This document shows positions 7,206-37,164 of a stretch of 37,605 nucleotides of DNA, one piece after another (within the stretch, counting starts at the first letter, position 1; every line of letters starts with the position of its first letter). The position numbers and the translations under genes are program-made. Under the pieces are notes generated by a model. That model made no database searches. It had not been told where the DNA came from and saw nothing but the letters and a program-made list of their open reading frames with translations. Origin of the DNA: Candidatus Kuenenia stuttgartensis (GTDB lineage: Bacteria; Planctomycetota; JAKEIC01; DYIT01); contig DYIT01000038.1 in assembly GCA_020723505.1 (NCBI GenBank), positions 1 to 37,605 on the forward strand, given 5' to 3'.

Positions 7206-7243
7206 ATATAAATAATGCATCATTTCATATATAAATAATGCAT
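7206..7243 (+). promoter_or_regulatory. Tandem operator-like repeat upstream of vapBC
   Basis: A 15-base AT-rich word, ATATAAATAATGCAT, is present at 7206-7220 and again at 7229-7243, so the copies start 23 bases apart, about two helical turns. Each copy ends in the palindrome ATGCAT. The stretch lies 23-60 bases before the antitoxin start in an otherwise GC-rich region, and TTGCTT (7195-7200) lies just upstream. VapB antitoxins commonly repress their own operon at such paired sites, so this is probably the operator overlapping the promoter. That role is inferred from position. Confidence 0.5.
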
Positions 7244-7265
7244 ATAAGTCTTTTCGGAGGCCAGT

Positions 7266-7463: not shown

Positions 7464-7464
7464 A

Positions 7465-7827: not shown

Positions 7828-7833
7828 ATAGAG

Positions 7834-8385: not shown

Positions 8386-8399
8386 TTAGGAAATGCCCC

Positions 8400-8978: not shown

Positions 8979-9049
8979 TTAGGCGCTGGTCGCCGCTGAT
9001 TCGTGATCGTTCGCTGGCGGGTCAATGCCTCCCAGGGCATGACGGCAGA

Positions 9050-9098
9050 GAGTCCAAAGTCGAAGGTCCGAAGTCAAAGGTCGATTGTTCGAGGTCGT
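9050..9098 (+). repeat. Degenerate GTC-rich repeat, locus A
   Basis: Between the barrel gene and the helicase, runs such as AGTCCAAAGTCGAAGGTCCG repeat a 7-10 base word of the form GTC(C/G)AA(A/G). Similar words occur at 12994-13027, 15010-15042 and 18411-18641. No protein is encoded. Confidence 0.6.
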
Positions 9099-9109
9099 CA
9101 TCACTCGCC

Positions 9110-9136
9110 CGGATTCCTGCTTTCGCCGGAATGACG
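9110..9136 (+). repeat. REP-like palindrome GGATTCC...GGAATGAC
   Basis: CCGGATTCCTGC is followed by TTTCGCCGGAATGACGG, giving inverted arms ATTCC/GGAAT around a short loop. A close relative lies at 12109-12137. Words of this type are common dispersed intergenic palindromes in many bacteria. Confidence 0.5.
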
Positions 9137-9184
9137 GCGGTGTGCTGTAGCCGCGGCACTCAGCTGCCGCGATCGGCCTGCGCC

Positions 9185-13012: not shown

Positions 13013-13027
13013 TCAGACTTTGGACCT
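12994..13027 (-). repeat. Degenerate GTC-rich repeat, locus B
   Basis: Plus-strand words GACTTTGGACTTCAGACTTTGGACC, read on the minus strand, give the GTCCAAAGTC pattern of locus A. The repeat overlaps the last codons of the radical SAM gene and supplies its stop codon. Confidence 0.55.
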
Positions 13028-15073: not shown

Positions 15074-16651
15074 TTACTTCTCGACCAGCCATCTCCCCAT
15101 GACCAGCGCGTCGAGCGGCGAGGAGTAGAAGGACATGACGGCGTCCCTCGGGGTGCAGACAATGGGTTCCGGGCCGATGTTGAACGAGGTGTTGAGCACC
15201 GCTCCGGCGCCTGTGAGCGCCTTGAACGCCGAGATCAGGGCGTGGAATTCAGGCTGGACCGCTTTGCTCACGGTCTGAGCCCTGACCGATCCGTCCACGT
15301 GAACGACGCCCGGGACTTCGGACCTTGCCGCGCCGTTCGCCATGAACGCCACGAGCATGAACGGCGATTCCCGCCAGACGTCGAAATACCTCGGCATGTC
15401 CTCGAGCAGGACCGACGGCGCGAGCGGCCTCCAAGGCTCCCTGCCCTTGATACGGTTCACCTTCGCCGCGATCTCCGGGTCCCTCGGGTCCGCAAGGATG
15501 CTTCTGCCGCCGAGCGCGCGGGGACCGATTTCCATGCCGCCCTGGAACCAGCCTATGATTCTCCCCTTGGCGAGGAGGGCGGCCGCCTCTGCCGCGGGGT
15601 CGTCCATGGGCCTGAAATTGCCCATGCGCGTCCGCGTAAGCGCCGTCCTGACCTGCTCGTCCGTGAATTTGGGGCCGTGGAACGCGTGGTCGAACTTGAT
15701 GTCCGGCTTGACGCCGACGATCTCGCGGTAGGTGAGCATCGCCGCGCCCAGGGCCGTCCCCGCGTCGTTCGACGCCGGCTGCACGAAAATCCTCTCGGCG
15801 ATTCCCGACCTGAGCAGCGCGCCGTTCGCCGAGCAGTTCAAGGAGCACCCGCCGGCCAGGCAGAAGTCGGAAATCCCGGTTTTCTCCCTGAGGATGGTTG
15901 CCATTGCGATGAGGCCCTTTTCGAAGGCCGCCTGAATCGTCGCGGCGAGGTCCTTGTGCTCCTGGGTGATTTCCGCGCCGGGCCGGCGCGGGACGAGCTT
16001 GGACGTGAACCTGCGGAATCTGCGCTTCGAAATGTAGGGGAGATTGGGGGGATCATACCAGTCGATGAAGTCCAGCCTCGAGATGTCCGGCGTTCCGTAC
16101 GCCGCGAGCCCCATCACCTTGCCCTCGTCGCGGTGGGCAATGAACCCGAGCGCTTCCGTGACCTTGCCGTAGACGTAGCCCCACGACTCCTTGAGCGGAA
16201 GCTCCTGGATGGCCCTGATGTCGTCTCCTTCGCCCACGCCGAGCAGCCCGGACTCCTGCTCGCCCCTGCCGTCCCATGTTATGACGCAGGCCTTGTCGAA
16301 GGGCGAGGGGTAGAAGGCGCTCGCCGCATGGGTCAGGTGGTGGCGGATGTACTTTACGCGCTTGTCTTCGATGTCAATCGGCAGCTGCTTGAACTGGTAG
16401 TCCCAGATGAACTTCTCCTTGCGTTTGCGGTAGTCGGCGGCGTCCCATCCCACGGATATGAAGTTCACGCCGGAGAGATCGATGCAACCCGCCTCGAGGC
16501 AGTTCTCGAGGGCCTTGTTCGGAGCAACGCCGTGGGACTGCTTGAACCTGTTGAGCCTCTCCTCCTCGACCATGCGGACGAGTCCGCCGCCGGAAATCAG
16601 GCACGCGGCGTTGTTCCAGGCCATCGGGTGCGTAAGGCCCAGTATGTGCAT
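15074..16651 (-). CDS. Carbamoyltransferase, NodU family (second of a tandem pair)
   Basis: 525 residues. NodU/TobZ-type enzymes use carbamoyl phosphate and ATP to place a carbamoyl group on a hydroxyl of a sugar or natural product. The N-terminal domain is Kae1-like: it opens MHILGLTHPMAWNNAACLI, then MVEEERLNRFK, and has the metal-binding H-x3-H at His104/His108 (HHLTH), then CVITWDGRGEQESGL. The middle carries FCLAGGCSLNCSANG. The C-terminal domain has GWFQGGMEIGPRALGGRSILADPRD and VLNTSFNIGPEPIV, both standard. It starts 4 bases after its upstream paralogue, whose last codons contain the AAGGA ribosome site, so the two are coupled. The acceptor is unknown; no sugar-pathway neighbours are in the window. 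Confidence 0.9.
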   Translation of the reverse strand: MHILGLTHPMAWNNAACLISGGGLVRMVEEERLNRFKQSHGVAPNKALENCLEAGCIDLSGVNFISVGWDAADYRKRKEKFIWDYQFKQLPIDIEDKRVKYIRHHLTHAASAFYPSPFDKACVITWDGRGEQESGLLGVGEGDDIRAIQELPLKESWGYVYGKVTEALGFIAHRDEGKVMGLAAYGTPDISRLDFIDWYDPPNLPYISKRRFRRFTSKLVPRRPGAEITQEHKDLAATIQAAFEKGLIAMATILREKTGISDFCLAGGCSLNCSANGALLRSGIAERIFVQPASNDAGTALGAAMLTYREIVGVKPDIKFDHAFHGPKFTDEQVRTALTRTRMGNFRPMDDPAAEAAALLAKGRIIGWFQGGMEIGPRALGGRSILADPRDPEIAAKVNRIKGREPWRPLAPSVLLEDMPRYFDVWRESPFMLVAFMANGAARSEVPGVVHVDGSVRAQTVSKAVQPEFHALISAFKALTGAGAVLNTSFNIGPEPIVCTPRDAVMSFYSSPLDALVMGRWLVEK

Positions 16652-16655
16652 CTGT

Positions 16656-18230
16656 TCAGTCCTTGGAAACCATGAAGTCGCCCATGGCCATGCTGTCCAT
16701 GGGCGACGCGAAGAACGTCGCCAGCGCGTCGCGCGGAGTCATGACGATGGGCTGCCTGGACAGGTTGAAGCTGGTGTTAATCAGGGCTCCGACGCCGGTC
16801 ATGTCCCTGAACCTTGCCAGGAGGTCGTGGAACCGCGGGTTGTCCCCGTGAGCGACGGTCTGCGCCCTCATCGTGCCGTCCACGTGCACCGCTGCCGGAA
16901 TGGCCTCCCGGGCGCGCTCTGAAGCCATGAGCGCCATCTGCATGAAGGGCGAGTCCGCGGGGCCGTCTATCATGCCGCCCGCCTCCTCGGCCATGATTGA
17001 CGGCGCCAAAGGCCTCCATTCCTCCCTGCCCTTGAGGTCGTTCACGCGCCTGCGCATCTGATCATCCCGCGCGTCCGCGAGGATGCTCCTGCCGCCCAGA
17101 GCCCTCGGGCCGAACTCGGACCTTCCCTGGAACCAGCCCACCACCTCGCCGGCCGCAAGCCTCTGCGCCGCCTCGCCGCAAACGTCGTCCATGCGCCTGT
17201 ATCTGCCCGCCCCGGCCGTCCTCAGCGCCGCCTCCACCTCCGCGTCAGCGAATCCCGGGCCGAGGAACGCGTTCGTGAGCCTCCCGGATGGCCAGTTCCC
17301 CGCCTCTTCGCGGTATACCCACAGCGCGGCCCCGATGGCCGTCGAAAGGTCGTGCGGAGCAGGGTTCACGTAGAGCTCGTCCGCGAAACCGGACCTCAGC
17401 AGCGCGCCGTTCATCGAACAGTTCAGCGCGCACCCGCCCGATACGCACAGCTTCCTCCCTCCGCCCGCACCGGACAGGTACTCCGCCATCTGGAGGGCGC
17501 CGCGCTCGAGCACGGCTTGAATCGTCGCCGCGGCGTTCCGGTGCTCCCCCGTTATCGGCGCGCTCTTGCTCCTGCCTTTAATCCTCGAGAGGTAGGCCCT
17601 GAACCGGTTCCTGTCGATTAGCGGCACGTCCCGGTCCCAGTCCACGAAGTCCGCGCCCTCGAGGTCCGGCTCCCCGTAGGACGCGAGCCCCATCACCTTG
17701 CCCTCGTCGCTGTGGAAACGGAATCCCAGCGCCGTCGTCACCTCGCTGTAGATCCAGCCCCATGACGCCTTGGTCGGCACGGATTTGAGGATCTTGAAGT
17801 CCGCCCCGTCCCCGATCCCGAGCACGCCGGATTCGCTCCCACCGTACGCGTCCAGGGAGATGACCCCCGCCTTGCCGAACCCGGACAGGAAATAGGATGC
17901 AATCGCGTGCGCGAGATGGTGGCGGACGAACCGGACGCGCGAGTCCTCGATGTCGAACGGAAGCAGGCGCGCGAGGTAGTTCCAAGGGAACCGCTTCTTC
18001 CGCTTCTGCTTGTTTCCAGCCTCCCACCCGACGGCGAAGAAGTCCACGTCGTCCATGCCGATTCCGCCAGCCTTGAGGCAGGCTTCGATTGAAAGCAGGG
18101 GCGGGACCCGCGAGGAGAACTTGAACCGGTTGAGCCTCTCCTCCTCCACGACGAAGACCAGCTCCCCGTCCTTTACAAGGCACGCTCCTGTGTTCCAGGA
18201 AATCGGGTGCGTGACGCCCAGGACTATCAT
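16656..18230 (-). CDS. Carbamoyltransferase, NodU family (first of a tandem pair)
   Basis: 524 residues from ATG 18230 (MIVLGVTHPISWN). I chose this over a frame-open start at 18269 because it aligns exactly with the start of the neighbouring paralogue, and AAGG lies about 8 bases upstream. It has the same layout: VVEEERLNRFK, the H-x3-H pair at His104/His108 (HHLAH), ISLDAYGGSESGVLG, CVSGGCALNCSMNG, GWFQGRSEFGPRALGGRS and LINTSFNLSRQPIV. The length is normal for the family. The two copies are clearly diverged, so they may have different acceptors or work as a pair. The upstream gap is filled with GTC-rich repeats. Confidence 0.9.
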   Translation of the reverse strand: MIVLGVTHPISWNTGACLVKDGELVFVVEEERLNRFKFSSRVPPLLSIEACLKAGGIGMDDVDFFAVGWEAGNKQKRKKRFPWNYLARLLPFDIEDSRVRFVRHHLAHAIASYFLSGFGKAGVISLDAYGGSESGVLGIGDGADFKILKSVPTKASWGWIYSEVTTALGFRFHSDEGKVMGLASYGEPDLEGADFVDWDRDVPLIDRNRFRAYLSRIKGRSKSAPITGEHRNAAATIQAVLERGALQMAEYLSGAGGGRKLCVSGGCALNCSMNGALLRSGFADELYVNPAPHDLSTAIGAALWVYREEAGNWPSGRLTNAFLGPGFADAEVEAALRTAGAGRYRRMDDVCGEAAQRLAAGEVVGWFQGRSEFGPRALGGRSILADARDDQMRRRVNDLKGREEWRPLAPSIMAEEAGGMIDGPADSPFMQMALMASERAREAIPAAVHVDGTMRAQTVAHGDNPRFHDLLARFRDMTGVGALINTSFNLSRQPIVMTPRDALATFFASPMDSMAMGDFMVSKD

Positions 18231-18683
18231 CCGCAAAGCCTTAAAACCGAGCCGGGCGGGTCCTGACACGGATTCGACCGCCGCAGTGCGCGGTTATACC
18301 ACGCCGAAATCCGGTGAAAAGCGAAAAACCCATGATGCATTGCGTTGGAATTGCGGCTGCCCGATGCAGGAATGGTGTTCTCCACACGCGGGAATGATGG
18401 TTGCTCGATAGAGTCGAAAGTCCAACGTCCAAGGTCTGAAGTCGAAAGTTCGAGGTCCAACGTCGAGAGTCGGAAGTCTAAAATCAGAAGTCGACATATG
18501 ACCTTGGACTTCAAACCTTCGTCGTTCAGAGCACGTATCCCCGGCCTCGTTGACCCTAGACGTTGGACCTTGGACATTAGACTTCCACATTATCCATGAT
18601 TTGACTTCCGACTTCAGACCTTGGACCTTAGACTTTGGACGATTTCAGTTCCGGCTCGCCCTGGTTTTGGATATGGAACTTGC
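18231..18683. other. Divergent intergenic gap dominated by GTC-rich repeats
   Basis: About 450 bases between the divergently read carbamoyltransferase and pseudouridine synthase genes. No credible gene is present. The centre and right are the locus D repeat (18411-18641). The bases before 18400 look like plain sequence and may hold the carbamoyltransferase promoter, though no clear -35/-10 pair is visible. Confidence 0.5.
18411..18641. repeat. Degenerate GTC-rich repeat, locus D, in inverted halves
   Basis: The left half (18411-18502) runs in the GTCCAA orientation and the right half (18547-18641) in the TTGGAC orientation. The two form an imperfect large palindrome. The best arms are 18427-18449 and 18604-18626, which match at 22 of 23 positions as reverse complements. 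The spacing would allow a long hairpin with about 150 bases between the arms. Confidence 0.7.
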
Positions 18684-20013: not shown

Positions 20014-20089
20014 CGGGGCGTGGCGCAGTTTGGCTTAGCGCGCTTGAATGGGGTTCAAGAGGTCGGTGGTTCGAATCCACTCGCCCCGA
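20014..20089 (+). tRNA. tRNA-Pro (anticodon GGG)
   Basis: A 76-base cloverleaf. The acceptor arms are CGGGGCG (20014-20020) and CGCCCCG (20082-20088), with discriminator A at 20089. The D arm is GCGC...GCGC. The anticodon stem CTTGA/TCAAG encloses loop ATGGGGT, giving anticodon GGG. The T arm is GGTGG TTCGAAT CCACT. CCA is not encoded. A run of six T (20090-20095) follows directly, and the 3' end takes part in a perfect inverted repeat. Confidence 0.95.
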
Positions 20090-20134
20090 TTTTTTCGCCA
20101 GTACGCAGGCATCCAGCGAAAAAATCGGGGCGAC
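20081..20134 (+). terminator. Perfect inverted repeat made from the tRNA-Pro 3' end
   Basis: TCGCCCCGATTTTTTCGC (20081-20098) is matched by its exact reverse complement at 20116-20133, separated by 17 bases. The T-run directly behind the tRNA suggests termination. The arms include the last nine bases of the tRNA, so a longer transcript could trap the acceptor strand in this hairpin. It could also be a trace of integration at the tRNA. Confidence 0.6.
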
Positions 20135-22834: not shown

Positions 22835-23518
22835 TCACCAGAGCCTCCACCAAGGCTTCTTTGATTTCAAAGGCTGTGGAGTTGTCTGCTGGTGAAGTCG
22901 AAATTCCTTCGTCCAAAACCGAAATGTGTCACCATGCATTGAACCATCGTCCCCCAACGGGTATTCAAGTCCGATCTTCTTCATGAAGTCACACATCTGC
23001 CAGCAATCAGAATTAGTGAAATCGTCGTCGGGATATGCTTTAGTTGGATTTTCCTCATCAAGATTCCACTCGGAAAAGTAATTCAAAATTGCGCCAGTAG
23101 AGAGGGATGGAATGAGTTCGGCGATGAGAGCGGCATCTCCCTTCCATCTCTCCTTCTCCTCCAATGGAAGTTCCTCCCAATATTCAGGCACTGGGTTGAA
23201 CCAGCCAACCTCCTTTCCATCCTGGTAAAGAACATACATCCAGAAGTCACCGTCATGAATATGAAGTGAGAACACAGGCTTCAAGAGTTTCTCTGAAAGG
23301 AATCTTGAGGCTTCGTTCCATTCTAAAAAACCGTCAGGATACATGACGGTGGTGTTGGGGCCATTCCGAGTGATGACACCGATGTTCGGGTCATTTGTGC
23401 TTCGTTCAACTTTCAACTCAAAACCACCGTTATGACTCAGAGCGAAATCAGATAATGCTCTCTTAACGTTCTTTGGTTCAGCACCGATAAGACCGGAAAG
23501 TGCTAGGAACAGCCCCAT
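22835..23518 (-). CDS. Hypothetical protein, possible immunity-type
   Basis: 227 residues. AAGGAGAG lies 7 bases before the ATG. I do not recognise the family with certainty. The start MGLFLALSGLIGAEPKNVKRALSDFAL is followed by a mixed alpha/beta body rich in Trp, Tyr and acidic residues (FWMYVLYQDGKEVGWFNPVPEYWEEL), then a basic tail KSKKPWWRLW. Soluble, acidic, aromatic-rich proteins of this size are common among polymorphic-toxin immunity proteins, and the neighbours point the same way. Base composition is clearly lower in GC than in the left part of the window, a sign of transfer. It is the last of three minus-strand genes. Confidence 0.6.
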   Translation of the reverse strand: MGLFLALSGLIGAEPKNVKRALSDFALSHNGGFELKVERSTNDPNIGVITRNGPNTTVMYPDGFLEWNEASRFLSEKLLKPVFSLHIHDGDFWMYVLYQDGKEVGWFNPVPEYWEELPLEEKERWKGDAALIAELIPSLSTGAILNYFSEWNLDEENPTKAYPDDDFTNSDCWQMCDFMKKIGLEYPLGDDGSMHGDTFRFWTKEFRLHQQTTPQPLKSKKPWWRLW

Positions 23519-23606
23519 AGCTCACTCTCCTTTTTCAGGCCAGCGGTAGTGTGTTCGATGCTGATGGCAATGTTCGTCCGCGGTATGGCGCGTTTATACG
23601 TTCCAC

Positions 23607-24416
23607 CTACGCTTCAAGGCGTCTAATCGCCAATCCGGAAACGCCCTCAACTACTGCTTTGGGATCGCACCCGTAGAGATCAGCTCCACTGAACGGGTTG
23701 AGCTCAAGGAGACGAAGACTGTCTTCTGTCTGGCAAACATCCATGACATAGACTTGTTCGGGTGACTCAAGCGCCGAAGCAACCTCTGTCGCGTACATCC
23801 ATGGTTCACCCGTCGGTTGGTCCGGAAGGGCTGTGCGCCCGTCCGCTGCGTAGGCGCTTCCCGCAACGACTTGACGAGAAACAACCACGTATCGCCACTC
23901 GCGGCTGACGACCCGCGCTGGAGCGATGACTATCGGAAGATTTTTATCTTCGTAGTAGAAGCCGAAGTCGAGCGCGTCGAGGGATATCGCCGAGGATGGG
24001 AGCACACGCCCTGCGAAGGGCTTCAGCGGGCTATCCGGACGTACGAACACAGAGTCCGGACTGCCGATGCAGGAAACGACTTCGAGGGTTGATTCAACAA
24101 GCTCCCTGACCGTCGTTGCACGCCACGGTGTATTGAGAATCCATTGGCTCGCCCCTGGATACCATGCTGTGCAATAGAAAGCGCGAGTCTGGCAGAATGC
24201 TCCCGGGCGCCATGGGAGATCACTATGGACGCGGGCAGCATTGCCGAGGCTGCCGTGAAAGATAACAGAGTAATCGGACAGCCTCGGCCAATCACCTGTT
24301 TCCCACCAGAGGTCGTCCCAGAGCACAAGACCGTGGCCGGCCTCGCGGACGGCGTTCGACATCGCCTCGTACCCTGGACCGAACACCTGAGGCTCAAGTA
24401 CCCATGTGGTTTTCAC
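23607..24416 (-). CDS. ATP-grasp (DUF4343/R2K-type) protein
   Basis: 269 residues from GTG 24416 (VKTTWVLEPQVFGPGYEAM). The frame is open to GTG 24479 (290 residues), and neither start has a strong ribosome site. The R2K features are visible: an N-terminal VLEP...GHGLVLWDD strand-helix-strand, then VFVRPDSPLKPFAGRVL with the Arg and Lys that name the family, REWRYVVVSRQVVAGSAY, and the metal-binding end VMDVCQTEDSLRLLELNPFSGADLYG with Asp, Glu and Asn. ATP-grasp enzymes join a carboxylate to an amine. R2K members occur in phages and in conflict-related islands, where peptide tagging has been suggested. It lies between two likely immunity-type genes on the same strand. Confidence 0.75.
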   Translation of the reverse strand: MKTTWVLEPQVFGPGYEAMSNAVREAGHGLVLWDDLWWETGDWPRLSDYSVIFHGSLGNAARVHSDLPWRPGAFCQTRAFYCTAWYPGASQWILNTPWRATTVRELVESTLEVVSCIGSPDSVFVRPDSPLKPFAGRVLPSSAISLDALDFGFYYEDKNLPIVIAPARVVSREWRYVVVSRQVVAGSAYAADGRTALPDQPTGEPWMYATEVASALESPEQVYVMDVCQTEDSLRLLELNPFSGADLYGCDPKAVVEGVSGLAIRRLEA

Positions 24417-24507
24417 GGCTTCACTCTTTACACGGTACTGCTTCGTGACCTGAACGTTTCGGCTGAGCGGTGGGTGCACGCTTTAGGCTCAACCGATGAT
24501 TCGGTTT

Positions 24508-24828: not shown

Positions 24829-25543
24829 CTGTTTCCCAATCCTGCCGAACGCGCAGCCCTTCATCCTCCCCTCGTAATATTAACTCAATTCGCCAATCTT
24901 CCAACCATCTTCTGCGTTGTGTAACGGATTGTTGTCCTTTCCGTAGTCCAAAGTATTCCTCTGTTCCCATTGTCCATCAGACTATCCCAGGATGTGCCCG
25001 ATGTCCCCTCGAATGTCCCTCCGAATGTCCCCGGGGCCATGGCCCATGACCCACCAAGCTGGGTCATGGCCCACCAAGCTGGGCCACGGCCCATGACCCA
25101 TCAAGCTGGGTCATGGCCCACCAAGCTGGGCCACAGCCCAGGTCTGGGCGCAGTCGGCAAGCGCGGCTCCCGTTGGGCGTGGGTGGCGAGGCGTCGGCAG
25201 GTTGGCCCCAAGGCACGTCGGCCGTCCCCCGGCGCGCCGTGGCGGCCCCTGGGTCGCGTGGTGGGCGCCCGGGGGCCACCACCAGGGCTTCTGCGGGGGC
25301 GGTCTCAAGAACACTTCCGCAAGATGTTGACCGCCTTGAGGATGTACGGTTCGGGGCCGTGGAGGAAGGCGGCGAGGAAGGGCTCGACGGCGGCGGACGG
25401 TTCAAAGTTCGGCCAGTTGCCCCGAGCAGCAGAAGGTGAGCTGAACGCAAGGTTTGCGTACTTGCCCCTCCTGGGCAGTGCGGCTCTGAAGGTCAGGATT
25501 AGACGGTAGTTTACCGGCTAATTCACAGACAAGGAGGTCGCAC
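24829..25543. other. Large non-coding gap before the integrase
   Basis: About 715 bases. The left third is plain. At 24995-25034 the word GAATGTCCC and variants recur in tandem, and at 25041-25134 lies a 47-base tandem repeat. The right half (25140-25510) is very GC-rich. On its minus strand, 25305-25518 reads open as ...GNWPNFEPSAAVEPF... but has no start, so it may be a gene remnant. Confidence 0.4.
25041..25134 (+). repeat. Two tandem 47-bp units, each built from hairpins
   Basis: Units at 25041-25087 and 25088-25134 differ at one base. Each holds CATGACCCA / TGGGTCATG around CCAAGC (or TCAAGC) and GGCCCA / TGGGCC around CCAAGC, so four hairpins stand in a row. The next six bases begin a decayed third unit. 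Confidence 0.8.
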
Positions 25544-26731
25544 ATGTCCAGGAAGCCTTCCCAGAATCCCCCGCCGTACCGTCATCACAAGCCCTCGGAC
25601 CAGGCTGTCGTCACCCTGAACGGCAAGGACCATTACCTCGGCCCCTTCGACTCGGAAGCCAGCCACACCGAGTACGACCGCCTCGTGGCTGAATGGCTTG
25701 CTCAAGGCCGGCGCCTGCCCGCCCAAGGGGAAGAAGGGCAGGAGCTGTCAGTAGGAAAGGTCATGCTCGCCTTCATCAGGCACGCCGACCAGTACTACGT
25801 CAAGCCCGACGGCAAGCCGTCCTCAGAGGCGAACGCAATGCGGTGCGCCCTGAGGTTCGCCAGGAAGCTCTACACCCATCTCCCGGTCAGAAAGTTCGGC
25901 CCCAAGGCGCTCAAGGCCTGCCGGGAAGCCATGATTCAGGCCGGGCTCTCGAGGAACTGCATCAACGGCTACGTGGCGCGCATCAGGATGATGTTTAAGT
26001 GGGCGGCCGCGGAGGAGCTCGTCAGCCCCGAGGTCTTCCACGGCCTCCAGGCGGTATCCGGCCTCCGCAGGGGACGCTCTGCTGCTAGGGAGACCGAGCC
26101 TGTCACGCCGGTCTCTGATTCACAAGTCGAGGCCATCCGGCCTTTCGTCCTGCCGACCGTCTGGGCCATGGTCCGCGTACAGAACCTGACCGGGATGAGG
26201 AGCGGCGAACTGACCATCATGAGAGGGTGCGACATCGATAGGAGCAGCCAGGTCTGGGTCTACACGCCTGCGACCCACAAGACTGCTCATCACGGGCTCT
26301 CCAGGACCGTCTACCTCGGCCCGCGGGCGCAGGAGATAATCGCCCCCTACGTCCGCAAGAACCCTTTCGGCTACCTCTTCCGCCCGGAGGACGCGATGGA
26401 GACCTTCAACATGAATCGCCGGAAGAATCGCAGGTCCCCGATGACCCCGAGCCAGGCGAAGAGGAAGCAGAAGAGCAATCCGCAGAATCCGCCGGGGGAC
26501 CGGTACACGACCGCCAGCTACAGGAGGGCGATTACCAGGGCCTGCGATAGGGCTGGCATCCCCTCCTGGCACCCGCATCAGCTGCGCCACACGGCGGCGA
26601 CCAGGATAAGGAAGGAGTTCGGGATTGAGGCTGCCAGGGTGGTGCTTGGGCACACCAGCGCAGAGATGACGGAGGTCTACGCCGAGATCGACAAGATGAA
26701 GGCCAGCGATATCATGGCACGGGTGGGGTAA
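25544..26731 (+). CDS. Tyrosine recombinase / phage-type integrase
   Basis: 395 residues, with AAGGAGGT (25531-25538) 5 bases before the ATG, an excellent ribosome site. Residues 1-190 contain an N-terminal AP2-like segment (QAVVTLNGKDHYLGPFDSE) and a SAM-like core-binding domain. The catalytic domain has all canonical residues: Arg219 (MRSGEL), His345 and Arg348 (HPHQLRH), His370 (LGHTS) and Tyr379 (EVYAEID). These cut and rejoin DNA through a 3'-phosphotyrosine link. The enzyme is complete. It probably inserted the segment that follows to the right edge. No attachment site is visible; direct repeats flanking an element would be needed. The AP2-like N-terminus resembles planctomycete site-specific integrases. 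Confidence 0.92.
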   Translation: MSRKPSQNPPPYRHHKPSDQAVVTLNGKDHYLGPFDSEASHTEYDRLVAEWLAQGRRLPAQGEEGQELSVGKVMLAFIRHADQYYVKPDGKPSSEANAMRCALRFARKLYTHLPVRKFGPKALKACREAMIQAGLSRNCINGYVARIRMMFKWAAAEELVSPEVFHGLQAVSGLRRGRSAARETEPVTPVSDSQVEAIRPFVLPTVWAMVRVQNLTGMRSGELTIMRGCDIDRSSQVWVYTPATHKTAHHGLSRTVYLGPRAQEIIAPYVRKNPFGYLFRPEDAMETFNMNRRKNRRSPMTPSQAKRKQKSNPQNPPGDRYTTASYRRAITRACDRAGIPSWHPHQLRHTAATRIRKEFGIEAARVVLGHTSAEMTEVYAEIDKMKASDIMARVG

Positions 26732-27318: not shown

Positions 27319-27624
27319 ATGATTGACGTTCAGAACGAAGAGCTCCTGACATTTTCAAGAGCAGCGAGGCGGCTTCCCGGAAGGGGTGAGAATTCAGGTG
27401 TCCACTCCTCGACCCTTTACCGCTGGAGCCAGAGAGGGCTCCGCGGCATCCACCTCGAGACGGTACAGGTCGGCGGGAGGCGTTGCACATCAATGGAGGC
27501 CCTCTACAGGTTTTTCACCAGTCTCCGGCAGGCATCAGCAGGCGGTGCCAATGAAACAGGCCAGAACGAATCCTGGAGGAGGGACCTGGATGTCGAGCGC
27601 AAACTGGAGAGCGCTGGAATCTAA
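27319..27624 (+). CDS. DUF1580-type small DNA-binding-like protein
   Basis: 101 residues. GGGAGGGG precedes the ATG by 5 bases. The pattern VHSSTLYRWSQRGLRGIHLE then VQVGGRRCTSMEALYRFF (about residues 31-68) is the DUF1580 signature: a helix-turn-helix followed by a two-stranded wing and a helix, as in excisionase-like MerR relatives. DUF1580 proteins occur mostly in Planctomycetota, usually next to integrases, so this is probably the element's excisionase or regulator. The tail is acidic and polar. It is the first gene right of the integrase on the same strand. Confidence 0.75.
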   Translation: MIDVQNEELLTFSRAARRLPGRGENSGVHSSTLYRWSQRGLRGIHLETVQVGGRRCTSMEALYRFFTSLRQASAGGANETGQNESWRRDLDVERKLESAGI

Positions 27625-28559: not shown

Positions 28560-31500
28560 ATGGAGATTTCGTCTAATCGGTTTCTGAGGGAGTACGCGCA
28601 GTCCGAGGGGATAGCACTGCCTACCGACGGCAGTGGCGGGACTCTGGATTTCTCCGGAGAAAACAGCCTCTTGAACCTATTGATTAGCAAGGGGATAGGG
28701 GAAAATCGCCTCGCCGCCCTGCTTGTGAAATTCGCAGAATTCAAAGAGGTCCAAAGCGTCCCAGCCATGTCGAACAGCCTGGCCTTCGGGCTCCAACTTT
28801 CTCAGCAAAAGTTGGTCTCGGCCGCGGACATCTGGTCAGCCTTTACAGACCAGGAGCGCACATGGGCATCAGGGACCGAGAAGTCCCTCGACTGGTTCCT
28901 CATGCGCCAGGGGAAGATTACGGCGGAGCAGGTCCTACATGCGCTGAAGGAAACAGGGAAGAAGGTCGTAGTATGCAGGTTCTGCGGCCGAAGAGAGATG
29001 CTTGCCGTAGAATCTGGCGAATCTAGGCTCAATTGCCCTGAATGCCTTGGCCTCATGACAGAGGCTACGAGCGCCACGGACCTGCACGTGGAAGACGAAG
29101 CTGCAAAGCATGTCCCTTCACTGCTCGGCACCGTGATTGCCGGGTGCTCCATTGAGCGTCTCCTCGGCAAGGGCAGCATGGGAGCGGTGTACCTAGCCAA
29201 GCATATCTCGCTCAACAAACCCGTAGCAGTGAAAATCCTCACTACAGGCCCTGAGAACAAGAAGGCTACGAAGCGCTTCGTGCGCGAGGCCCGTACTGCA
29301 GCCCGCCTCGACCACCCCAACGTCGTGCAGGTCTTCGACACGGGCATGTCCGGCGACCAGCACTACATTGTCATGAAGTTCGTCGAGGGCGAGAGCGCAG
29401 CCGCGAAGGTCAAGCGCGACGGCCCCATGCCAATCCAGGAAGCTGTCAGGATAGTCATAGACGCGTCAAAAGGCCTCCAGGCCGCCCACCGCATCGGGTT
29501 CATACATCGCGACGTCAAACCTGACAACATCATGATTGACCTCGACGGAATCGTGAAGGTAGCCGACTTCGGGCTTGCAAAGGAGCTGGATGTAAAGGGA
29601 TCTGTCCTGACCGCAGACGGCCAGGCCATGGGCACGCCGCATTACATGAGCCCGGAACAGGCCAGGGACGCCAGCTCCGTGGGCCCTGCTGCGGACATCT
29701 ACTCCCTCGGCGCAACCCTTTACACCCTGCTCAGCGGTAAGCCGCCGTTCTCAGGATCGACCGTATGGGCAGTGGTCAACGCAGCGCTGAATGACCCTGC
29801 CCCTGATATCCGCAAATCAAGACCCGACGTCCCTGACCAACTCGCTGAATTTCTCCTTCGGACGATGGAGAAAAATCCTACAAAACGCCCCGCGAGTATG
29901 ATTGACTTCTGTAAGGAACTCGAGGCAATAGTGCAAGGAACCGCAAAGAGAGTCCATGAAACACCGATGCAAGAAAATACATCGGATGTTGTAATTCGCG
30001 TCGAAATGGACAAGCGAATCCACTTCGCCTTTCAGCAGAATGATGTTCCTGTAGTAAAAAGCATAGTCATCGAGAACATCACCGAAACCAATTTAGGCCC
30101 CCTCACCCTGCAGGTCCAATCAGAACCAGCTTTCTCGAAGGAATGGGACCTCAACCTCTCAGGCATCGCTCAAGGCGCCTCAAGTATAGTAAGGACGCCC
30201 AATATACAGCTGTCACCGTCATTTCTCGAATCACTGACGGAACGTCTCCAGGGATTCCTGCGTTTCGAAGCCAGTATAGGAGGACGCACAATCGGAAGTA
30301 CTGAGGAAGTAGTGACTCTGCTTGCGAAGGATGAGTGGCCTGGCCTCGGCTCACTCCCGGAAATCCTAGCCGCCTTCGTGCTTCCTAACCATCCAATTAT
30401 CGAACAGATTCTCCACGAAGCTTCCCAATGTTTGGAGAAATGGACTCGCTCTTCATCGCTCTCCGGCTATCAGGAGAGCGGTCCTAAACGGGTCGCATAC
30501 CAAGCAGCGGCGGTCTATGAGACGTTACGGTCCTGCCATCTAGCATACGTCAATCCACCAGCGAGCTTTGAAACCGAGGGGCAGCGCATTCGGCTGCCGG
30601 ACAGAATCCTCCGTTCAAAGTTGGCCACGTGCCTTGACGTCGCCATTCTTGCCGCAGCATGTCTTGAGCAGGCTGGCCTGCACCCCCTAATCCTATTCCA
30701 GAAGGGACACGCTTTCACGGGTTTCTGGCTTCAAGACGAGTGCTTCCCCGAACCTGCAGTCGAGGATTCCCATAGGGTGAACAAACGTGTAGCCCTAAAT
30801 GAATTACTTGTTTTCGATGCGGTCGGCATTACCTCCAAGCCGAGTTTGGATTTCCAGGCAGCGGTACGAGCCGGGAATTCACTACTTCAGAATTCTGCCG
30901 AGTTCGTATGTGCAGTGGACGTGCGTCGCGCGCGAATAAGCGGCATCCGGCCAATGCCCGAGCGAATAGATGGGGAAAAAGGTTCAGTAACTGAATCCGA
31001 ATCCCAGACCGTCGCCTTCAAAGCCCCTGACCTTGAGAAAATTCCTGAACTGTCATCAGAGGTAGCCACAGCCCCTGAAATGCCGAAAACGAGGTTGGAC
31101 CGATGGTCACGAAAGTTACTTGACCTCACTCTTCGGAATCGCCTTCTAAACTTCAGGGAATCCCAAGGTGCACTGCGCTTGATGTGTCCGGACATCTCTT
31201 CCTTAGAGAACGCCCTAGCCGCAGGTGAGGAATTCCGCATTTTGTCGCGCCCTCTAGAATATGGGGACAAGGACCCACGTAGTGCAGAGGCGATACGAGA
31301 GAGAACGGGCAAAGACCCAATAGAGGAGTTCCTCCATACAGAGATGAAGGAGAATCACCTCTACTCGAATCTCGGCAAAGATGAGCTTCAGAAACGCTTG
31401 CTTAAAATATTCCGCGACGCGCGTTCCGGCCTCGAAGATGGAGGCGTAAGTGGACTGTACGTCGCGATGGGGTTCCTCTCTTGGTACGAATCGCCTGGGC

Positions 31501-34500
31501 ACGATACAGCCCACCTCGCTCCAATACTACTTTTGCCAGCTGAGCTGAGGCGAAAGTCAATCCGTGAGGAGTTCTCTTTGGCCTTTGGAGATGAGGAATC
31601 CCGAATAAATGTAACGTTGCTAGAGATGCTTGATAAGCAGTTTGGGATAAAGATATCAGGTTTAGACCCCCTCCCCACGGACGAGTCCGGTCTCGATGTG
31701 AAGAAAATCCTCCAGGAGGTCCGTAAGGCCGTAAAAAACATCGACCGCTGGGACGTGTGTGAGGACCTACTCTATGTCGGTCGCTTTTCGTTCAGTAAAT
31801 TCCTCATGTGGCGTGACCTCGTCGAGCGTGAAGCCGACCTACGTCGCAATCAGGTTGTGAATCATTTGATATACAATCCAGAGGAGCCATTCCAGCAAGC
31901 CGGGAAGATGCCTGATGCATGCCGCATCGATGAGGAGAGGTCGCCGCTGGGGACATACTGTCCTCTGTCATCGGACTCGTCCCAGCTTGCCGCCGTTTAT
32001 GCTGCTGCGGAGGGGAAGTCCTTCGTCCTCCACGGGCCGCCCGGGACTGGCAAATCACAGACGATTACTAATCTAATAGCTCACTGTCTAGCGGCAGGAA
32101 AAAGCATCCTTTTCATTTCGGAAAAGATGGCTGCCTTGAATGTTGTGCATTCGCGGTTGAAAGCCCTTGGGCTAGACCGTTTTTCCCTTGAAATACATTC
32201 AAACAAGGCTAAGAAGTCAGAAGTCCTGCAAAAGCTTGGGGAGGCGTTCACCAAATCCGGGAAAGAACCTCAGGAAGCCTGGAGAATTGAAGCTGAACAA
32301 ATCCAGGACTTGCGAGGGCGGCTAAACGAATATGCCAGCGCTCTACATAAAAGCCGCCGGACCAGAGAGACATACTTCGAAGCCATTTCACGCCTTGCAG
32401 CATTGCGCACATTACCCCGAGTTAATCTCAGCTTGCCCTCAGTAGATAACGTCGATGGGCAAACACTCAAACGACTGCGGGAAACAACTGAGCGTTTAGC
32501 TACAGTTGCCGACATATGTGGGGGAGTCTCAGATCACCCTTGGGCGGCTACCACGCCTGGAAATTGGAGCCAGGCATTTGAGGATGATACGCGAACTGCC
32601 AGGGCACGCCTTCAATCGGCTATTGAATTACTCGAGCCTGCCGCAGCGAATGTGGTAAAAACCGCCGGTTTAGTACATTCAGGTATGTCATTAGCAGATT
32701 CATGGAACTTGAAGGACTTTCAAACCCTCGCAGACTTTGCGGAAGCATTCTCGAAGGGATACTCACCACCAGCAGAGCTCTTGACCGGCAAAGACAGCGA
32801 AGAAATATCGCGAAAAACAAGCTACTGGGTCGAACACGGCCGGAATAGAGACATTTATGAAGGGGACCTGTTCAAGCGGTATCACAGGACGGTCATGGAT
32901 TTGGATTTGGACACATTGCGCAGTCTTCTAGCGAAATCTCAGAGGTCCTGGTGGCCGCTATGCTGGATACAACGCAGAGCTATTCGCAAACGTCTCAGTG
33001 AGCATACCATCGACGGTACTAAACCTGCCTCGACGGAACTCGAACATGACCTGGATTTGACGCTTGCCTTGCGTACCGAGGAAAAGACATTGTCGGATGC
33101 AGACTCGGAAGGTAAGGCACTTTATGGGGCCTACTGGAGGGGTGGACAGCCTGATTGGGAAGAGATCTCAATTTTAGCGACGTGGGCTGCGAAAGTCCGT
33201 GAGATATCACTTGCTGCTGCGGGAATGAATTTAGACACGGCCGCTTCCTTACGTGCAATGTGGGGAAGGCTTGCTTGCGAGGGCAAGGAGCTTCTCAAGG
33301 AGGGAGGAACTCTGCATGCCGTTTTAAAGGGATGGCTTCGAGTATGGAGGGAGTTCCTAGATGCCAAAGCTGCTGTGAAGGAAAAACTAGGCGTCATCTC
33401 AAAGTTAGCGTGGGGTGGTGTAAAGAATCCGGGCGCAATTACGTATATGCAAAAGACCCTTAGGACCTGGAGTGAGAATGAAAGAAGGTTCAGGGATTGG
33501 TGTGCTTGGCGCGATGTGCGGAACGAGGCGGTGGCACTTTCCCTTGAGCCTATAGTCGATGCCTGTGAAAAGGGAATCCTACAAAGTTCCGAGCTTCCAG
33601 CGGCGTTTGAGAAAGCTTTCGCTATCTGGTGGACAGAAGCTATAGGTAAGACAGAACCGGTACTAGGCAATTTCTTCTCACCAGAGTACGAAAGAGTACT
33701 CAAGAAATTCCGAAAAACAGATGACCGATTCCGTGAATTAACCAAGGATCTTGTAGTCGCGCGCCTCGAGGCAAAAGCGCCAGAAGTCGCTTCTACGGAC
33801 GTCAAAAGCTCAGAGATGGGGATTCTCGCGCGCGAGCTCCAGAAGAAGAGCAGGCACATGTCCATTAGGTCACTGTTCCAGAAGATTCCCAATCTCCTTC
33901 CTAGGCTGAAGCCATGCTTACTAATGAGCCCCATTAGCGTAGCCCAATACCTTGATTCCAAGTTCCCACCCTTCGATATTGTGGTATTCGACGAGGCTTC
34001 GCAGATTCCGGTTTGGGACGCCGTAGGCGCAATAGCACGAGGAAGACAGGCAATAATTGTGGGAGACCCGAAACAACTACCGCCAACCTCGTTTTTCCAG
34101 CGAGGGGATTCTCCGGAAGGAGAAGTCGAGGAGGATTCCGTCGAGGACCTTGAGAGTATTCTAGACGACTGCCTGGCCGCCCGCATGCCCTCTTTGCATC
34201 TGGACTGGCATTACCGCAGCCGGCACGAAAGCCTCATCGCTTTCAGCAATTCCCGCTACTACGATGGGCGCTTGTTGACTTTTCCCTCGCCCAATCCCTC
34301 TGGCATGGGTGTATCATGGAGGCCAGTGCCAGGAGGAATCTACGATAAGGCAAAAACGCGCACGAACCGAGCCGAGGCCGAATCGCTGGTGAAGGAGGTC
34401 TTGAAACGCCTTAAGAATTCCATACTCTGCCGGAGAAGCATCGGCATAGTGACGTTCAGCCTGGTCCAGCAGGAACTCATCGAGGACTTACTCGAGGCGG

Positions 34501-35912
34501 AACGTAGAATGGACCCTTCCATTGACAGGTTCTTCTCGGATGAAGTGCTGGAACGTGTTTTCGTTAAGAACCTCGAGAACGTTCAAGGAGATGAGCGTGA
34601 TGCGATTCTCTTCTCCGTTGGCTATGGGCCAGACGGAGACGGGAAAGTCTCAATGAACTTCGGGCCTTTGAATCGAGACGGAGGAGAACGACGGCTCAAC
34701 GTCGCCATTACCCGCGCGCGCATGGAAGTCATAGTGTTCTCGACACTTCGAGCGGATCAAATCGACTTGAACCGCACTCGGGCACGCGGTGTCGCAGATT
34801 TGAAAGCTTTTCTTGAGTATGCGGAAACAGGCGCCTCAGTGTCGTCTCAGGCTGTATCGGCCAAGGCTGAAGCAATGGGAGCAATTGAATCTGAAGTAGC
34901 TCAAGCATTGCGAAGGAAAGGTTGGAAGGTCGATGAAAGAATTGGACGTTCGGGATACCGAGTGGACCTAGGAGTCACATCGACTGATAGGCCGGATGAA
35001 TATCTTCTAGGTATCGAGTTTGACGGGCCAGGATATGGCAAGGCTCGCACTGCCAGAGATAGAGACAAATTGCGCAAGGACGTACTGGAAGAATTAGGAT
35101 GGATTCTGCACAGAGTATGGGCTGCGGATTGGATTCGTGACCCGATAAAGGAGGTTGAGAAAATCGAAAAAGCGCTTACTGCCGCATCCAACATAAGGGC
35201 GAGCCAAATAAAGGAGGGAGTGGAAGCTAAGACCCTGACCGCTGTGCAATCACATCTTGTTGAGCGTATCAAAGCGAAAGAATCGGATGAAGAAAATGCA
35301 TCTATTGCTGTGGTTGCATCTCCATCCGCGCAGACTGACTTGCCAATATATAAACCCTTCCCTACATTTAGACCGATAGGTATGCCGGAATCGTTCTTTT
35401 ACAGCAGCGAAGATGCGAGAATTGGGAATGCACTTAAAAAGGTTGTTGATTTCGAGGGCCCGATGAGTGTGGCGCTTGCGGCTCGTCGCATTGCCCTATT
35501 GTGGGGAATCGAGTGTGTTTCGAAAAAGGTGCTCACACGTGTGGTCGAACTCATTCCCAGCACTGGAGTCAAGTTAGTACCAGCACCGGAAGGGGATTTT
35601 CTGTGGCCACTTCATGATGATCGGCGATTGTATGAGCGATTTCGCGTCCCCGGCACAGATGAATCATCTTGTAGGTCCATTGAGGACCTCCCTCTCATTG
35701 AAATAGTCAACGCTGTAATATATACGCTTAAGCGGACTGTGAGCCTACCGGTTGAGGACCTTTGCCGTAAAACTGGGAAGCTATTCGGATTCTCTCGAAC
35801 GAGCTCGAAGGTGCGCGAGAAAATTCTCGAAGGTATTGATTTAGTCGTGAATAGAGGACTTGCTGTGAGGAATGGGGACATCATTACCGAGAAGGCGAGA
35901 AAGAGCTTCTAG
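28560..35912 (+). CDS. Ser/Thr kinase fused to an Hhe-like DUF4011-helicase-Vsr defence protein
   Basis: 2450 residues in one open frame. Residues 1-130 contain a planctomycete kinase-type sensor region (LSQQKLVSAADIWSAF, ITAEQVLHAL). A zinc ribbon follows at Cys139, Cys142, Cys159 and Cys162. The kinase spans about 196-460: GKGSMGAV (203-210), Lys225, HRD with Asp318, DFG with Asp336, YMSPEQA. A beta-sandwich and a transglutaminase-like domain (Cys691, His717, Asp753) come next, then DUF4011 from about 847 (LDRWSRKLLDLTLRNRLLNF). The superfamily 1 helicase has GPPGTGKS (1159-1166), DEASQ (1811-1815) and RRLNVAITRAR (2044-2054). A Vsr/MTES_1575-like nuclease shows Asp2136 and Glu2153-x-Asp2155, and DUF3320 lies at about 2277-2340. 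All catalytic residues look intact. DUF4011-helicase-Vsr is, from memory, the Hhe anti-phage system; the kinase fusion is unusual. Confidence 0.9.
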   Translation: MEISSNRFLREYAQSEGIALPTDGSGGTLDFSGENSLLNLLISKGIGENRLAALLVKFAEFKEVQSVPAMSNSLAFGLQLSQQKLVSAADIWSAFTDQERTWASGTEKSLDWFLMRQGKITAEQVLHALKETGKKVVVCRFCGRREMLAVESGESRLNCPECLGLMTEATSATDLHVEDEAAKHVPSLLGTVIAGCSIERLLGKGSMGAVYLAKHISLNKPVAVKILTTGPENKKATKRFVREARTAARLDHPNVVQVFDTGMSGDQHYIVMKFVEGESAAAKVKRDGPMPIQEAVRIVIDASKGLQAAHRIGFIHRDVKPDNIMIDLDGIVKVADFGLAKELDVKGSVLTADGQAMGTPHYMSPEQARDASSVGPAADIYSLGATLYTLLSGKPPFSGSTVWAVVNAALNDPAPDIRKSRPDVPDQLAEFLLRTMEKNPTKRPASMIDFCKELEAIVQGTAKRVHETPMQENTSDVVIRVEMDKRIHFAFQQNDVPVVKSIVIENITETNLGPLTLQVQSEPAFSKEWDLNLSGIAQGASSIVRTPNIQLSPSFLESLTERLQGFLRFEASIGGRTIGSTEEVVTLLAKDEWPGLGSLPEILAAFVLPNHPIIEQILHEASQCLEKWTRSSSLSGYQESGPKRVAYQAAAVYETLRSCHLAYVNPPASFETEGQRIRLPDRILRSKLATCLDVAILAAACLEQAGLHPLILFQKGHAFTGFWLQDECFPEPAVEDSHRVNKRVALNELLVFDAVGITSKPSLDFQAAVRAGNSLLQNSAEFVCAVDVRRARISGIRPMPERIDGEKGSVTESESQTVAFKAPDLEKIPELSSEVATAPEMPKTRLDRWSRKLLDLTLRNRLLNFRESQGALRLMCPDISSLENALAAGEEFRILSRPLEYGDKDPRSAEAIRERTGKDPIEEFLHTEMKENHLYSNLGKDELQKRLLKIFRDARSGLEDGGVSGLYVAMGFLSWYESPGHDTAHLAPILLLPAELRRKSIREEFSLAFGDEESRINVTLLEMLDKQFGIKISGLDPLPTDESGLDVKKILQEVRKAVKNIDRWDVCEDLLYVGRFSFSKFLMWRDLVEREADLRRNQVVNHLIYNPEEPFQQAGKMPDACRIDEERSPLGTYCPLSSDSSQLAAVYAAAEGKSFVLHGPPGTGKSQTITNLIAHCLAAGKSILFISEKMAALNVVHSRLKALGLDRFSLEIHSNKAKKSEVLQKLGEAFTKSGKEPQEAWRIEAEQIQDLRGRLNEYASALHKSRRTRETYFEAISRLAALRTLPRVNLSLPSVDNVDGQTLKRLRETTERLATVADICGGVSDHPWAATTPGNWSQAFEDDTRTARARLQSAIELLEPAAANVVKTAGLVHSGMSLADSWNLKDFQTLADFAEAFSKGYSPPAELLTGKDSEEISRKTSYWVEHGRNRDIYEGDLFKRYHRTVMDLDLDTLRSLLAKSQRSWWPLCWIQRRAIRKRLSEHTIDGTKPASTELEHDLDLTLALRTEEKTLSDADSEGKALYGAYWRGGQPDWEEISILATWAAKVREISLAAAGMNLDTAASLRAMWGRLACEGKELLKEGGTLHAVLKGWLRVWREFLDAKAAVKEKLGVISKLAWGGVKNPGAITYMQKTLRTWSENERRFRDWCAWRDVRNEAVALSLEPIVDACEKGILQSSELPAAFEKAFAIWWTEAIGKTEPVLGNFFSPEYERVLKKFRKTDDRFRELTKDLVVARLEAKAPEVASTDVKSSEMGILARELQKKSRHMSIRSLFQKIPNLLPRLKPCLLMSPISVAQYLDSKFPPFDIVVFDEASQIPVWDAVGAIARGRQAIIVGDPKQLPPTSFFQRGDSPEGEVEEDSVEDLESILDDCLAARMPSLHLDWHYRSRHESLIAFSNSRYYDGRLLTFPSPNPSGMGVSWRPVPGGIYDKAKTRTNRAEAESLVKEVLKRLKNSILCRRSIGIVTFSLVQQELIEDLLEAERRMDPSIDRFFSDEVLERVFVKNLENVQGDERDAILFSVGYGPDGDGKVSMNFGPLNRDGGERRLNVAITRARMEVIVFSTLRADQIDLNRTRARGVADLKAFLEYAETGASVSSQAVSAKAEAMGAIESEVAQALRRKGWKVDERIGRSGYRVDLGVTSTDRPDEYLLGIEFDGPGYGKARTARDRDKLRKDVLEELGWILHRVWAADWIRDPIKEVEKIEKALTAASNIRASQIKEGVEAKTLTAVQSHLVERIKAKESDEENASIAVVASPSAQTDLPIYKPFPTFRPIGMPESFFYSSEDARIGNALKKVVDFEGPMSVALAARRIALLWGIECVSKKVLTRVVELIPSTGVKLVPAPEGDFLWPLHDDRRLYERFRVPGTDESSCRSIEDLPLIEIVNAVIYTLKRTVSLPVEDLCRKTGKLFGFSRTSSKVREKILEGIDLVVNRGLAVRNGDIITEKARKSF

Positions 35913-36234: not shown

Positions 36235-37164
36235 ATGCAACCGGCAATTCCTCTGAATCAACTTGAGACCCTGCTCCGGGAACGCGAAAGATGCTTCCAG
36301 GACCGGGTCGTGCCCGCATCAGGCATAAGGATGGACGACACGGGCAAAATCGTCATTCAGGGTGAATCCCACCCCCTGCAGGACCACGTCCTGACGCTCC
36401 TCGGCCCCAAGCTGGGCATCCCCGCCGCCTACCTCAGGCACTGCCCTCCCGAGCTCCGGGCCATCAACGTAAATCACTGGATGGAGCGGCTCGGCGATAG
36501 GAACCTCTTCGTGCGCATGGATGGCCATGCGGTCCGCGCCGTGCTTTCCGCCCGGTACGTGCCCGTCAGCAACCTCGAGCTGGTCAGGCATGCAACCAGG
36601 ACCATCCCTCCCGAGACGGGCGCCTTCGTGACCCTCTCCGAGACCCGATTGGTCTGCCAAGTCCTCCTCAAGGAGCACCGGCAGCTCATGGCCCCTGGGG
36701 ACGAGGTCCTCGGCGGTATCACGCTGGCCAACAGCGAGGTGGGGTTCGCATCCCTGGAGGTGGCGCAGTTCCTGCACAGGCTGGTCTGCTCGAACGGACT
36801 CATTGTCCGGGTAGCCGGTGAGTCCCTACGCCGCATCCACCTCAAGAACCGCGTCAGCCTCGTTAATGAGGTGTTCGCAGCCCTCTCATCCGTGGTCGAG
36901 GGCCTCCCCCGCTCCCTGGAATCCATGAGGAACGCCAGGGAAGTCGCCCTCCCCGACCCCTCTTCCACCTTGGATGCCCTTCCACGCCGCTACGGCCTAT
37001 CGGAGGACGAGCACAGCGCAGTCAGAGCTGCGTGGCAGGAGGAGCAGGGCGACACGCTCTACCACCTCATCAACGCCCTGACTGGCGCAGCCAGGAACGA
37101 AATGCTCTCCACGGAGAGCGCCCTCAGGCTCCAGACCCTGGCTGGCGACCTGCTCCCGGCTTGA
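36235..37164 (+). CDS. DUF932-type phage/plasmid-like protein
   Basis: 309 residues. AAAGGAG lies 6 bases before the ATG. The layout fits the DUF932 family: an N-terminal region with HPLQDHVLTLLGPKLGIPAAYL, then FVRMDGHAVRAVLSARYVPVSNLELV, GGITLANSEVGFASLEVAQFLHRLVCSNGLIV, and a helical C-terminus. DUF932 proteins are frequent on plasmids, phages and integrative elements; their role is not settled, though links to replication or transfer functions have been suggested. Codon use is GC-rich, unlike the Hhe part of the giant gene before it. The next gene follows after a hairpin and has the same type of ribosome site, so the two may form a unit. Confidence 0.8.
   Translation: MQPAIPLNQLETLLRERERCFQDRVVPASGIRMDDTGKIVIQGESHPLQDHVLTLLGPKLGIPAAYLRHCPPELRAINVNHWMERLGDRNLFVRMDGHAVRAVLSARYVPVSNLELVRHATRTIPPETGAFVTLSETRLVCQVLLKEHRQLMAPGDEVLGGITLANSEVGFASLEVAQFLHRLVCSNGLIVRVAGESLRRIHLKNRVSLVNEVFAALSSVVEGLPRSLESMRNAREVALPDPSSTLDALPRRYGLSEDEHSAVRAAWQEEQGDTLYHLINALTGAARNEMLSTESALRLQTLAGDLLPA

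Follow-up and report, generated by a model that had tools for sequence, protein, structure and literature searches.

The protein of 2450 residues described here is encoded by a single gene in a 37,605-nucleotide stretch of DNA (the window) from a Planctomycetota bacterium. Comparison with its relatives shows that it arose by an in-frame fusion between the inner half of a receptor kinase native to the same genome and an entire anti-phage protein, ProA, which now stands where the membrane helix and the ectodomain would be. The combination was not met in any of the relatives examined and suggests that a defence protein that attacks DNA has been connected to the signalling of the cell itself. Both ProA and the receptor kinase family are of known kinds; their joint architecture is new, and the literature searched, which takes in neither bioRxiv nor most subscription journals, yielded no account of a kinase fused to DUF4011 or to ProA. 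If the two activities are coupled, a bacterial protein kinase would be driven directly by a helicase-nuclease as it recognises foreign DNA. Sensor and kinase would then be wired together in a single chain, and the protein would offer a natural experiment on whether ProA senses DNA unaided. The gene also illustrates how, by a clean domain swap, a bacterium rich in kinases can draw a defence gene into one of its signalling families.

Architecture of the fusion gene

Reading of the frame confirmed the claim of a first-pass annotation, made from the DNA letters alone, that this is one unbroken frame of 2450 residues: it is open from an ATG throughout all 2450 codons, with no internal stop (Table 1). 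The further claim that the frame combines an intact kinase with a complete defence helicase-nuclease was borne out as well, both by Pfam domains scoring above their curated cut-offs (the kinase, DUF4011, AAA_11/AAA_12, MTES_1575 and DUF3320 all match at this level) and by the presence of the motif residues, each of those named at the outset (Lys225, Asp318, Asp336, Lys1165, Asp2136 and Glu2153) having the expected identity. The source genome is a draft (4.95 Mb in 207 contigs, 89% complete, 4.4% contamination), probably metagenome-assembled, and the contig ends together with the window, at position 37605.

Table 1. Positions in the window of the fusion gene, its parts and the neighbouring genes.
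Feature	Positions	Strand	Basis
Whole gene, cytoplasmic half of a receptor kinase plus ProA, 2450 aa	28560..35912	+	Frame, Pfam, NCBIfam
N-terminal helical domain, residues 1-132, also present in three receptor kinases of this genome	28560..28955	+	Sequence comparison
Zinc ribbon, Cys139/142/159/162	28974..29045	+	Cys invariant in 21 aligned sequences
PknB-like Ser/Thr kinase domain, residues 198-445, Lys225/Asp318/Asp336 intact	29151..29894	+	Pfam, fold match, residues
Join, about residues 465-475; in-frame ATG at 29967 (Met470), possible relic of the ProA start	29952..29984	+	End of homology, frame comparison
Ig-like beta-sandwich, first domain of ProA, residues 475-587	29982..30320	+	Structure model, Foldseek
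Transglutaminase-like domain (weakly supported), about residues 600-793, Cys691/His717	30357..30938	+	Model, Foldseek, alignment
DUF4011, residues 852-1024	31113..31631	+	Pfam
SF1 helicase; Walker A 32034-32057 (residues 1159-1166), motif II 33981-34004 (residues 1808-1815)	31971..34742	+	Pfam, alignment
Vsr-like nuclease MTES_1575, residues 2110-2206, Asp2136/Glu2153/Asp2155	34887..35177	+	Pfam, alignment
DUF3320, residues 2280-2318, winged-helix region in the account of PMC3710099	35397..35513	+	Pfam
Phage-type integrase, upstream of the fusion, possible mobile context	25544..26731	+	
DUF1580 protein, upstream	27319..27624	+	
DUF932 protein, downstream	36235..37164	+	

The large half is a complete ProA

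The match to the NCBIfam ProA equivalog (NF058533) extends over residues 489-2413 of the fusion and over profile positions 2-1903 of 1903, and scores 2147 bits, well above the cut-off of 1500. On the other hand, the Hhe equivalog (NF042953) gave 783 bits against a curated cut-off of 2000, which rules out membership in Hhe in spite of the DUF4011 domain and the matching stretches shared across the helicase-nuclease part; the label "Hhe-type" originally attached to this protein had to be abandoned. With the ProA cut-off passed and the Hhe cut-off failed, the large half is, on profile evidence, ProA and not Hhe. The fusion differs from the ProA model in having about 470 extra N-terminal residues, which comprise the helical domain, the zinc ribbon and the Ser/Thr kinase. 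Among the PADLOC models the best match was to a candidate system, PDC-S37 (1317 bits, residues 843-2442). The name "Prometheus" is listed in the literature as that of a DefenseFinder system, with no definition of it among the papers searched; to judge by the name, it may be the system to which ProA belongs.

Within this half, the Pfam matches to DUF4011 (2e-44), MTES_1575 (8e-28) and DUF3320 (9e-7) are accompanied by AAA_11 (residues 1138-1286) and AAA_12 (residues 1869-2061), and the helicase displays Walker A, Walker B and further motif strings. Comparison of 112 aligned domains of the Vsr-like nuclease showed that Asp2136 (109/112) and Asp2155 (108/112) are almost always kept, Glu2153 being less conserved than Asp2136 (E in 87/112); Phe2154 of the fusion is unusual, as 89 of the 112 domains have Cys at this position.

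The structure model of residues 475-845 is confident (pLDDT 93.3), and its stretch 475-587 is a beta-sandwich. Foldseek returned weak matches with this model (TM about 0.2), with beta-sandwich proteins on top; transglutaminases are present among the first 17 matches (E 6e-4 to 9e-4), aligned over about 120 columns, or as a whole at about 17 Å rmsd. The transglutaminase-like character proposed earlier is weakly supported: Cys691 and His717 are kept in all 57 of 57 aligned homologues, the Pfam family DUF553 matches below its cut-off (E 0.029), and the fold matches just mentioned are weak. The transglutaminase-like module of ProA was also seen in other frames of the phylum (loci L076-L085, 252-876 aa), which are without DUF4011 matches.

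The kinase half is related to receptor kinases of the same genome

The N-terminal half has the hallmarks of a Hanks-type kinase, namely, the catalytic Lys, the HRD Asp, the DFG Asp and a PknB-like kinase fold. The Pkinase profile matches at 7e-52, above its curated cut-off, the structure model of this half aligns to PknB with a TM score of 0.92 (normalised by the target), and all 50 matches listed in the fold search are kinases.

Three genes of the same genome (L209, L210 and L211; 1126-1208 aa) are homologous to the fusion from the N-terminus to about residue 465, with 41-44% identity over approximately residues 1-480. Their kinase domains are 53-55% identical to that of the fusion, and residues 1-190 find in them three good matches (33-38% identity); elsewhere in the phylum the same residues yield weak matches of at most 49 bits, in 29 of 293 other genomes. 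All three sister proteins consist of the N-terminal domain, the zinc ribbon, the kinase, a single strongly hydrophobic helix and a C-terminal FGE-sulfatase domain, and two of the three have Glucodextran_B or Ig-like domains. The fusion shares with these FGE-sulfatase receptor kinases the first three parts; it differs from them in carrying ProA where they have the membrane helix and the ectodomain, and by the family test it falls outside their family. Its best hydropathy window reaches 1.66 versus 2.7-3.2 in the three sisters, that is, hydropathy reveals no membrane helix comparable to theirs, and no FGE-sulfatase match is found among the 25 listed of 29 Pfam families. In the kinase tree (54 rows from the fetched loci), the fusion and the three receptor kinases form one clade with a support of 100/97, from a bootstrap noted as not fully settled, and the fusion branches first within it. 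On the strength of this grouping, the kinase half is native to its own genome.

The kinome of this genome is very large, with 125 kinase-domain matches (E up to 1e-10) in 4.95 Mb, a count that includes the fusion itself and takes some kinases as two pieces; some frames (C142, C145 and C189) have two kinase matches each, of nearly full kinase length.

A Ser/Thr kinase domain is likewise the feature that the fusion shares with several kinase-bearing defence systems. Its scores are below the cut-offs of both the BREX PglW model (NF033442; 74 bits vs 990) and the MADS MAD6 model (NF047741; 165 bits vs 460). PADLOC models of PD-T4-6 do match the kinase (best 282 bits), a match that is no specific evidence of membership. 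Stk2 also has a Ser/Thr kinase domain; abortive kinases of this type, when triggered by phage, phosphorylate proteins and bring about cell death. Neither Stk2 nor PglW, MAD6 or PD-T4-6 is known to be fused to a helicase-nuclease.

ProA is common and its fusion to a kinase is found once

ProA scores over the cut-off in 42 of 392 genomes of the phylum, including the source genome, and a search at E up to 1e-100 reaches 118 of the 392, a figure that includes the source genome together with lower-similarity DUF4011 relatives. In the classes of two other members of the phylum, ProA is over the cut-off in 38/154 and 3/17 genomes, some of which overlap with the 392-genome sample; when the first two ProA domains were used as a query against another class, matches came from 50 of 397 genomes, partly through other proteins. 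At least 558 ProA relatives were present among the candidate stretches on GTDB contigs, the best 80 of these at least 558 being kept and representing many phyla. Relatives are also found on 7 viral contigs and on plasmids of Paraburkholderia, Thioclava, Paracoccus, Rhizobium and Bacteroides. The order of the source genome is represented in the sample by one further genome, which gave no ProA match. When ProAs were placed in a tree of 71 rows (the fusion plus the 70 best-scoring of 144 others), the nearest to the fusion, itself on a long branch, were three ProAs from the phylum that stand alone (87/87).

Judged by this comparison, ProA by itself is common, and the kinase is the new element of this gene: it is carried by one of 145 distinct ProA-type ORFs, the fusion alone. 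These ORFs are stop-to-stop frames with Ig-like, transglutaminase-like and DUF4011 parts from loci L001-L172 and L243-L280, the count leaving out loci L173-L242 and L281-L300, which had been retrieved as matches to the kinase or to the domain preceding it. The upstream end lies within the locus for 141 of the 144 other ORFs and is cut in 3; helicase and nuclease follow in the same ORF in 114 of 145, and 25 of the remaining 31 run off the locus. Another 22 DUF4011 ORFs, which lack the first two ProA parts, gave no kinase in frame, and none of the 1066 matching plasmid records or 56 phage records contained a single place covering 80% of a kinase-plus-ProA-start query. The first-pass annotation knew of no description of such a fusion, and in these searches no second instance came to light.

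Further fusions were sought by Pfam in the N-terminal stretches of other long frames, 20 stretches from 19 genes (L042 and L277 being one gene), and this possibility was discarded as no kinase appeared; the frames being stop-to-stop, these extensions may be partly non-coding. What they contained was DUF4145 in L134, DUF4011 itself in L041, L042/L277, L267 and L272, and, in one of the 20, a RING-finger match below the cut-off. A simple merger with a kinase gene that regularly neighbours ProA was set aside as well: a kinase ORF is present in 3 of 87 GTDB and viral loci (flanks up to 10 kb, often shorter), with no pattern apparent from these raw counts. Among the phylum loci, L271 (partly seen as L041; three kinase ORFs) and L278 have a kinase ORF near a DUF4011 relative. 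In L271 (G043:C87, from a 12.3 Mb genome) the kinase ORF, 8740-11595 (-), overlaps a DUF4011 helicase-nuclease frame, 3821-10414 (-), being located on the same strand and immediately upstream; this is possibly a neighbour stage of a kinase and a DUF4011 protein.

Proposed mechanism and direction of signalling

The chances appear to us about evenly balanced that the origin outlined above is combined with a dual function, in which ProA engages and cuts foreign DNA and the kinase serves as a second output. In this scheme, the inner half of a receptor kinase (N-terminal domain, zinc ribbon and kinase) was fused to a whole ProA gene. ProA would engage and cleave foreign DNA via the DUF3320 winged helix, the helicase and the Vsr-like nuclease, and this engagement would cluster or release the kinase, which would then phosphorylate its own chain and targets in the host. 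This would add a second layer of defence, in the form of arrest or of an alarm that reaches the kinase network.

A precedent for such an arrangement is provided by published architectural relatives. The account of these proteins in PMC3710099 (2013) presents giant proteins of the MTES_1575 type, in which a transglutaminase, an SF1 helicase, a Vsr nuclease and a wHTH are combined with an N-terminal HEPN RNase; the RNase is proposed there to cause suicide if DNA cleavage fails, and the C-terminal winged helix to recognise invading DNA. They resemble the fusion in the transglutaminase-like peptidase, SF1 helicase, Vsr nuclease and wHTH/DUF3320 and differ in having a HEPN RNase where the fusion has a kinase, as compared by published architecture; the kinase would thus occupy the position of the RNase. 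We infer the direction of signalling, from ProA to kinase, from architecture alone: an input at the ProA end and an N-terminal output are favoured because the sensor-like part of the sister kinases is C-terminal and the RNase of the HEPN giants is N-terminal. L134 may provide another case of an effector slot at the N-terminus: it is a ProA relative with DUF4145 ahead of ProA (residues 29-112 of a frame opening at base 250), DUF4145 being counted among the HEPN families in the same source. More tentatively, and with somewhat less than even chances, the N-terminus of ProA may be a plug-in slot for a second effector directed at the cell, HEPN in the giants and a kinase here, the fusion being then a soluble "DNA receptor kinase" that reports invading DNA by phosphorylation.

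The opposite assignment, in line with the first-pass annotation, seems unlikely to us. Here the sensor or switch would be the kinase, together with the ribbon and the domain that precede it; it would activate ProA by phosphorylation, leaving ProA as the sole effector. It would agree with an intact kinase placed in cis, and with the invariance of the four ribbon cysteines in 21 aligned sequences, which points to a functional N-terminal part, perhaps involved in ligand binding; the overlap of the two frames in L271 indicates, moreover, that a kinase and a DUF4011 protein can be neighbours. However, the N-terminal domain and the ribbon recur in the three receptor kinases, whose ectodomain is a separate part at the C-terminus, and are, therefore, not infection-specific, and a ProA free of kinase is the rule (144/145 ProA-type ORFs), so that ProA needs no fused kinase. 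The location of the sensor-like part C-terminal of the kinase in the sisters and of HEPN at the N-terminus in the giants also makes this assignment less likely than signalling from ProA to the kinase.

The join between the two halves

The kinase homology stops at about residue 465; in the structure model, residues 477-483 form the earliest strand of ProA. Met470, located between them, may be the old start of ProA, since other ProA frames can open very near the same point: among 54 further ProA ORFs in which a QQN motif can be recognised, 12 have frames that open no more than 30 residues ahead of it. A median of 35 residues precedes the first domain in the 145 ProA-type ORFs. Inspection by eye revealed no clear Shine-Dalgarno sequence before Met470; an internal start there could produce ProA alone. 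Two points count in favour of our preferred explanation: the join coincides with a border between domains and has an in-frame ATG next to it, and the motifs of both halves are present. The difference in GC3 between the kinase half (0.69) and the ProA half (0.53) points to a different origin of the two. The kinase half is closer in GC3 to its contig neighbours (about 0.66 in the two genes directly upstream) than to its three sisters (0.80-0.83).

Counting against our preferred explanation, a step in GC3 is also expected of a recent and perhaps useless fusion. It seems rather improbable, nevertheless, that ProA merely landed in a copy of a kinase gene and still functions, either by itself or with the kinase as a passive appendage that is irrelevant to defence. 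An accident of this kind would fit the single instance among the 145 distinct ORFs, the GC3 step at the join, the in-frame ATG at 470 and the crowding of the genome with kinases (125 matches). It fits less well with the catalytic residues kept in both halves and with all 2450 codons being open, and the kinase half has drifted from its sisters (to 41-44% identity over residues 1 to about 480) with its motifs retained, unlike a dead passenger.

That two genes were wrongly joined in the contig is highly improbable, even with one draft genome as the source, the join seen in no second genome and the GC3 step at the join: the 501 bases around it are single-copy in the genome (otherwise only two 51-base matches, 78%, in the kinase part), so that an assembler would have met no misleading repeat, the join is in frame and falls between the end of the kinase homology and the first ProA strand, and the GC3 of the kinase half is near that of the two upstream genes and unlike that of the chromosomal sisters.

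Surroundings of the fusion gene

The first-pass annotation placed the fusion in an integrase-bearing element. The integrase gene upstream makes this plausible, but a bounded element is not established, as no att-like repeats were found from position 19900 to the contig end. A defence island was considered and rejected, the eight neighbouring ORFs giving one PADLOC match (E up to 0.001), to a CARF model at 8e-4.

Several other features of the window were recorded. Two near-identical 47-base repeats and a third, overlapping copy (66%) lie at 25034-25127, before the integrase. Between the integrase and a tRNA-Pro gene there is a pair at 22835-24479 (-), formed by a low-GC ORF (GC 0.465) without a Pfam match and an adjoining ATP-grasp gene of the R2K clade, and the 3' end of the tRNA-Pro gene is overlapped by a perfect 18-base inverted repeat (20081-20133). 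Further upstream, two tandem carbamoyltransferase genes at 15074-18269 (-) are adjoined by a radical SAM gene at 13013-14866.
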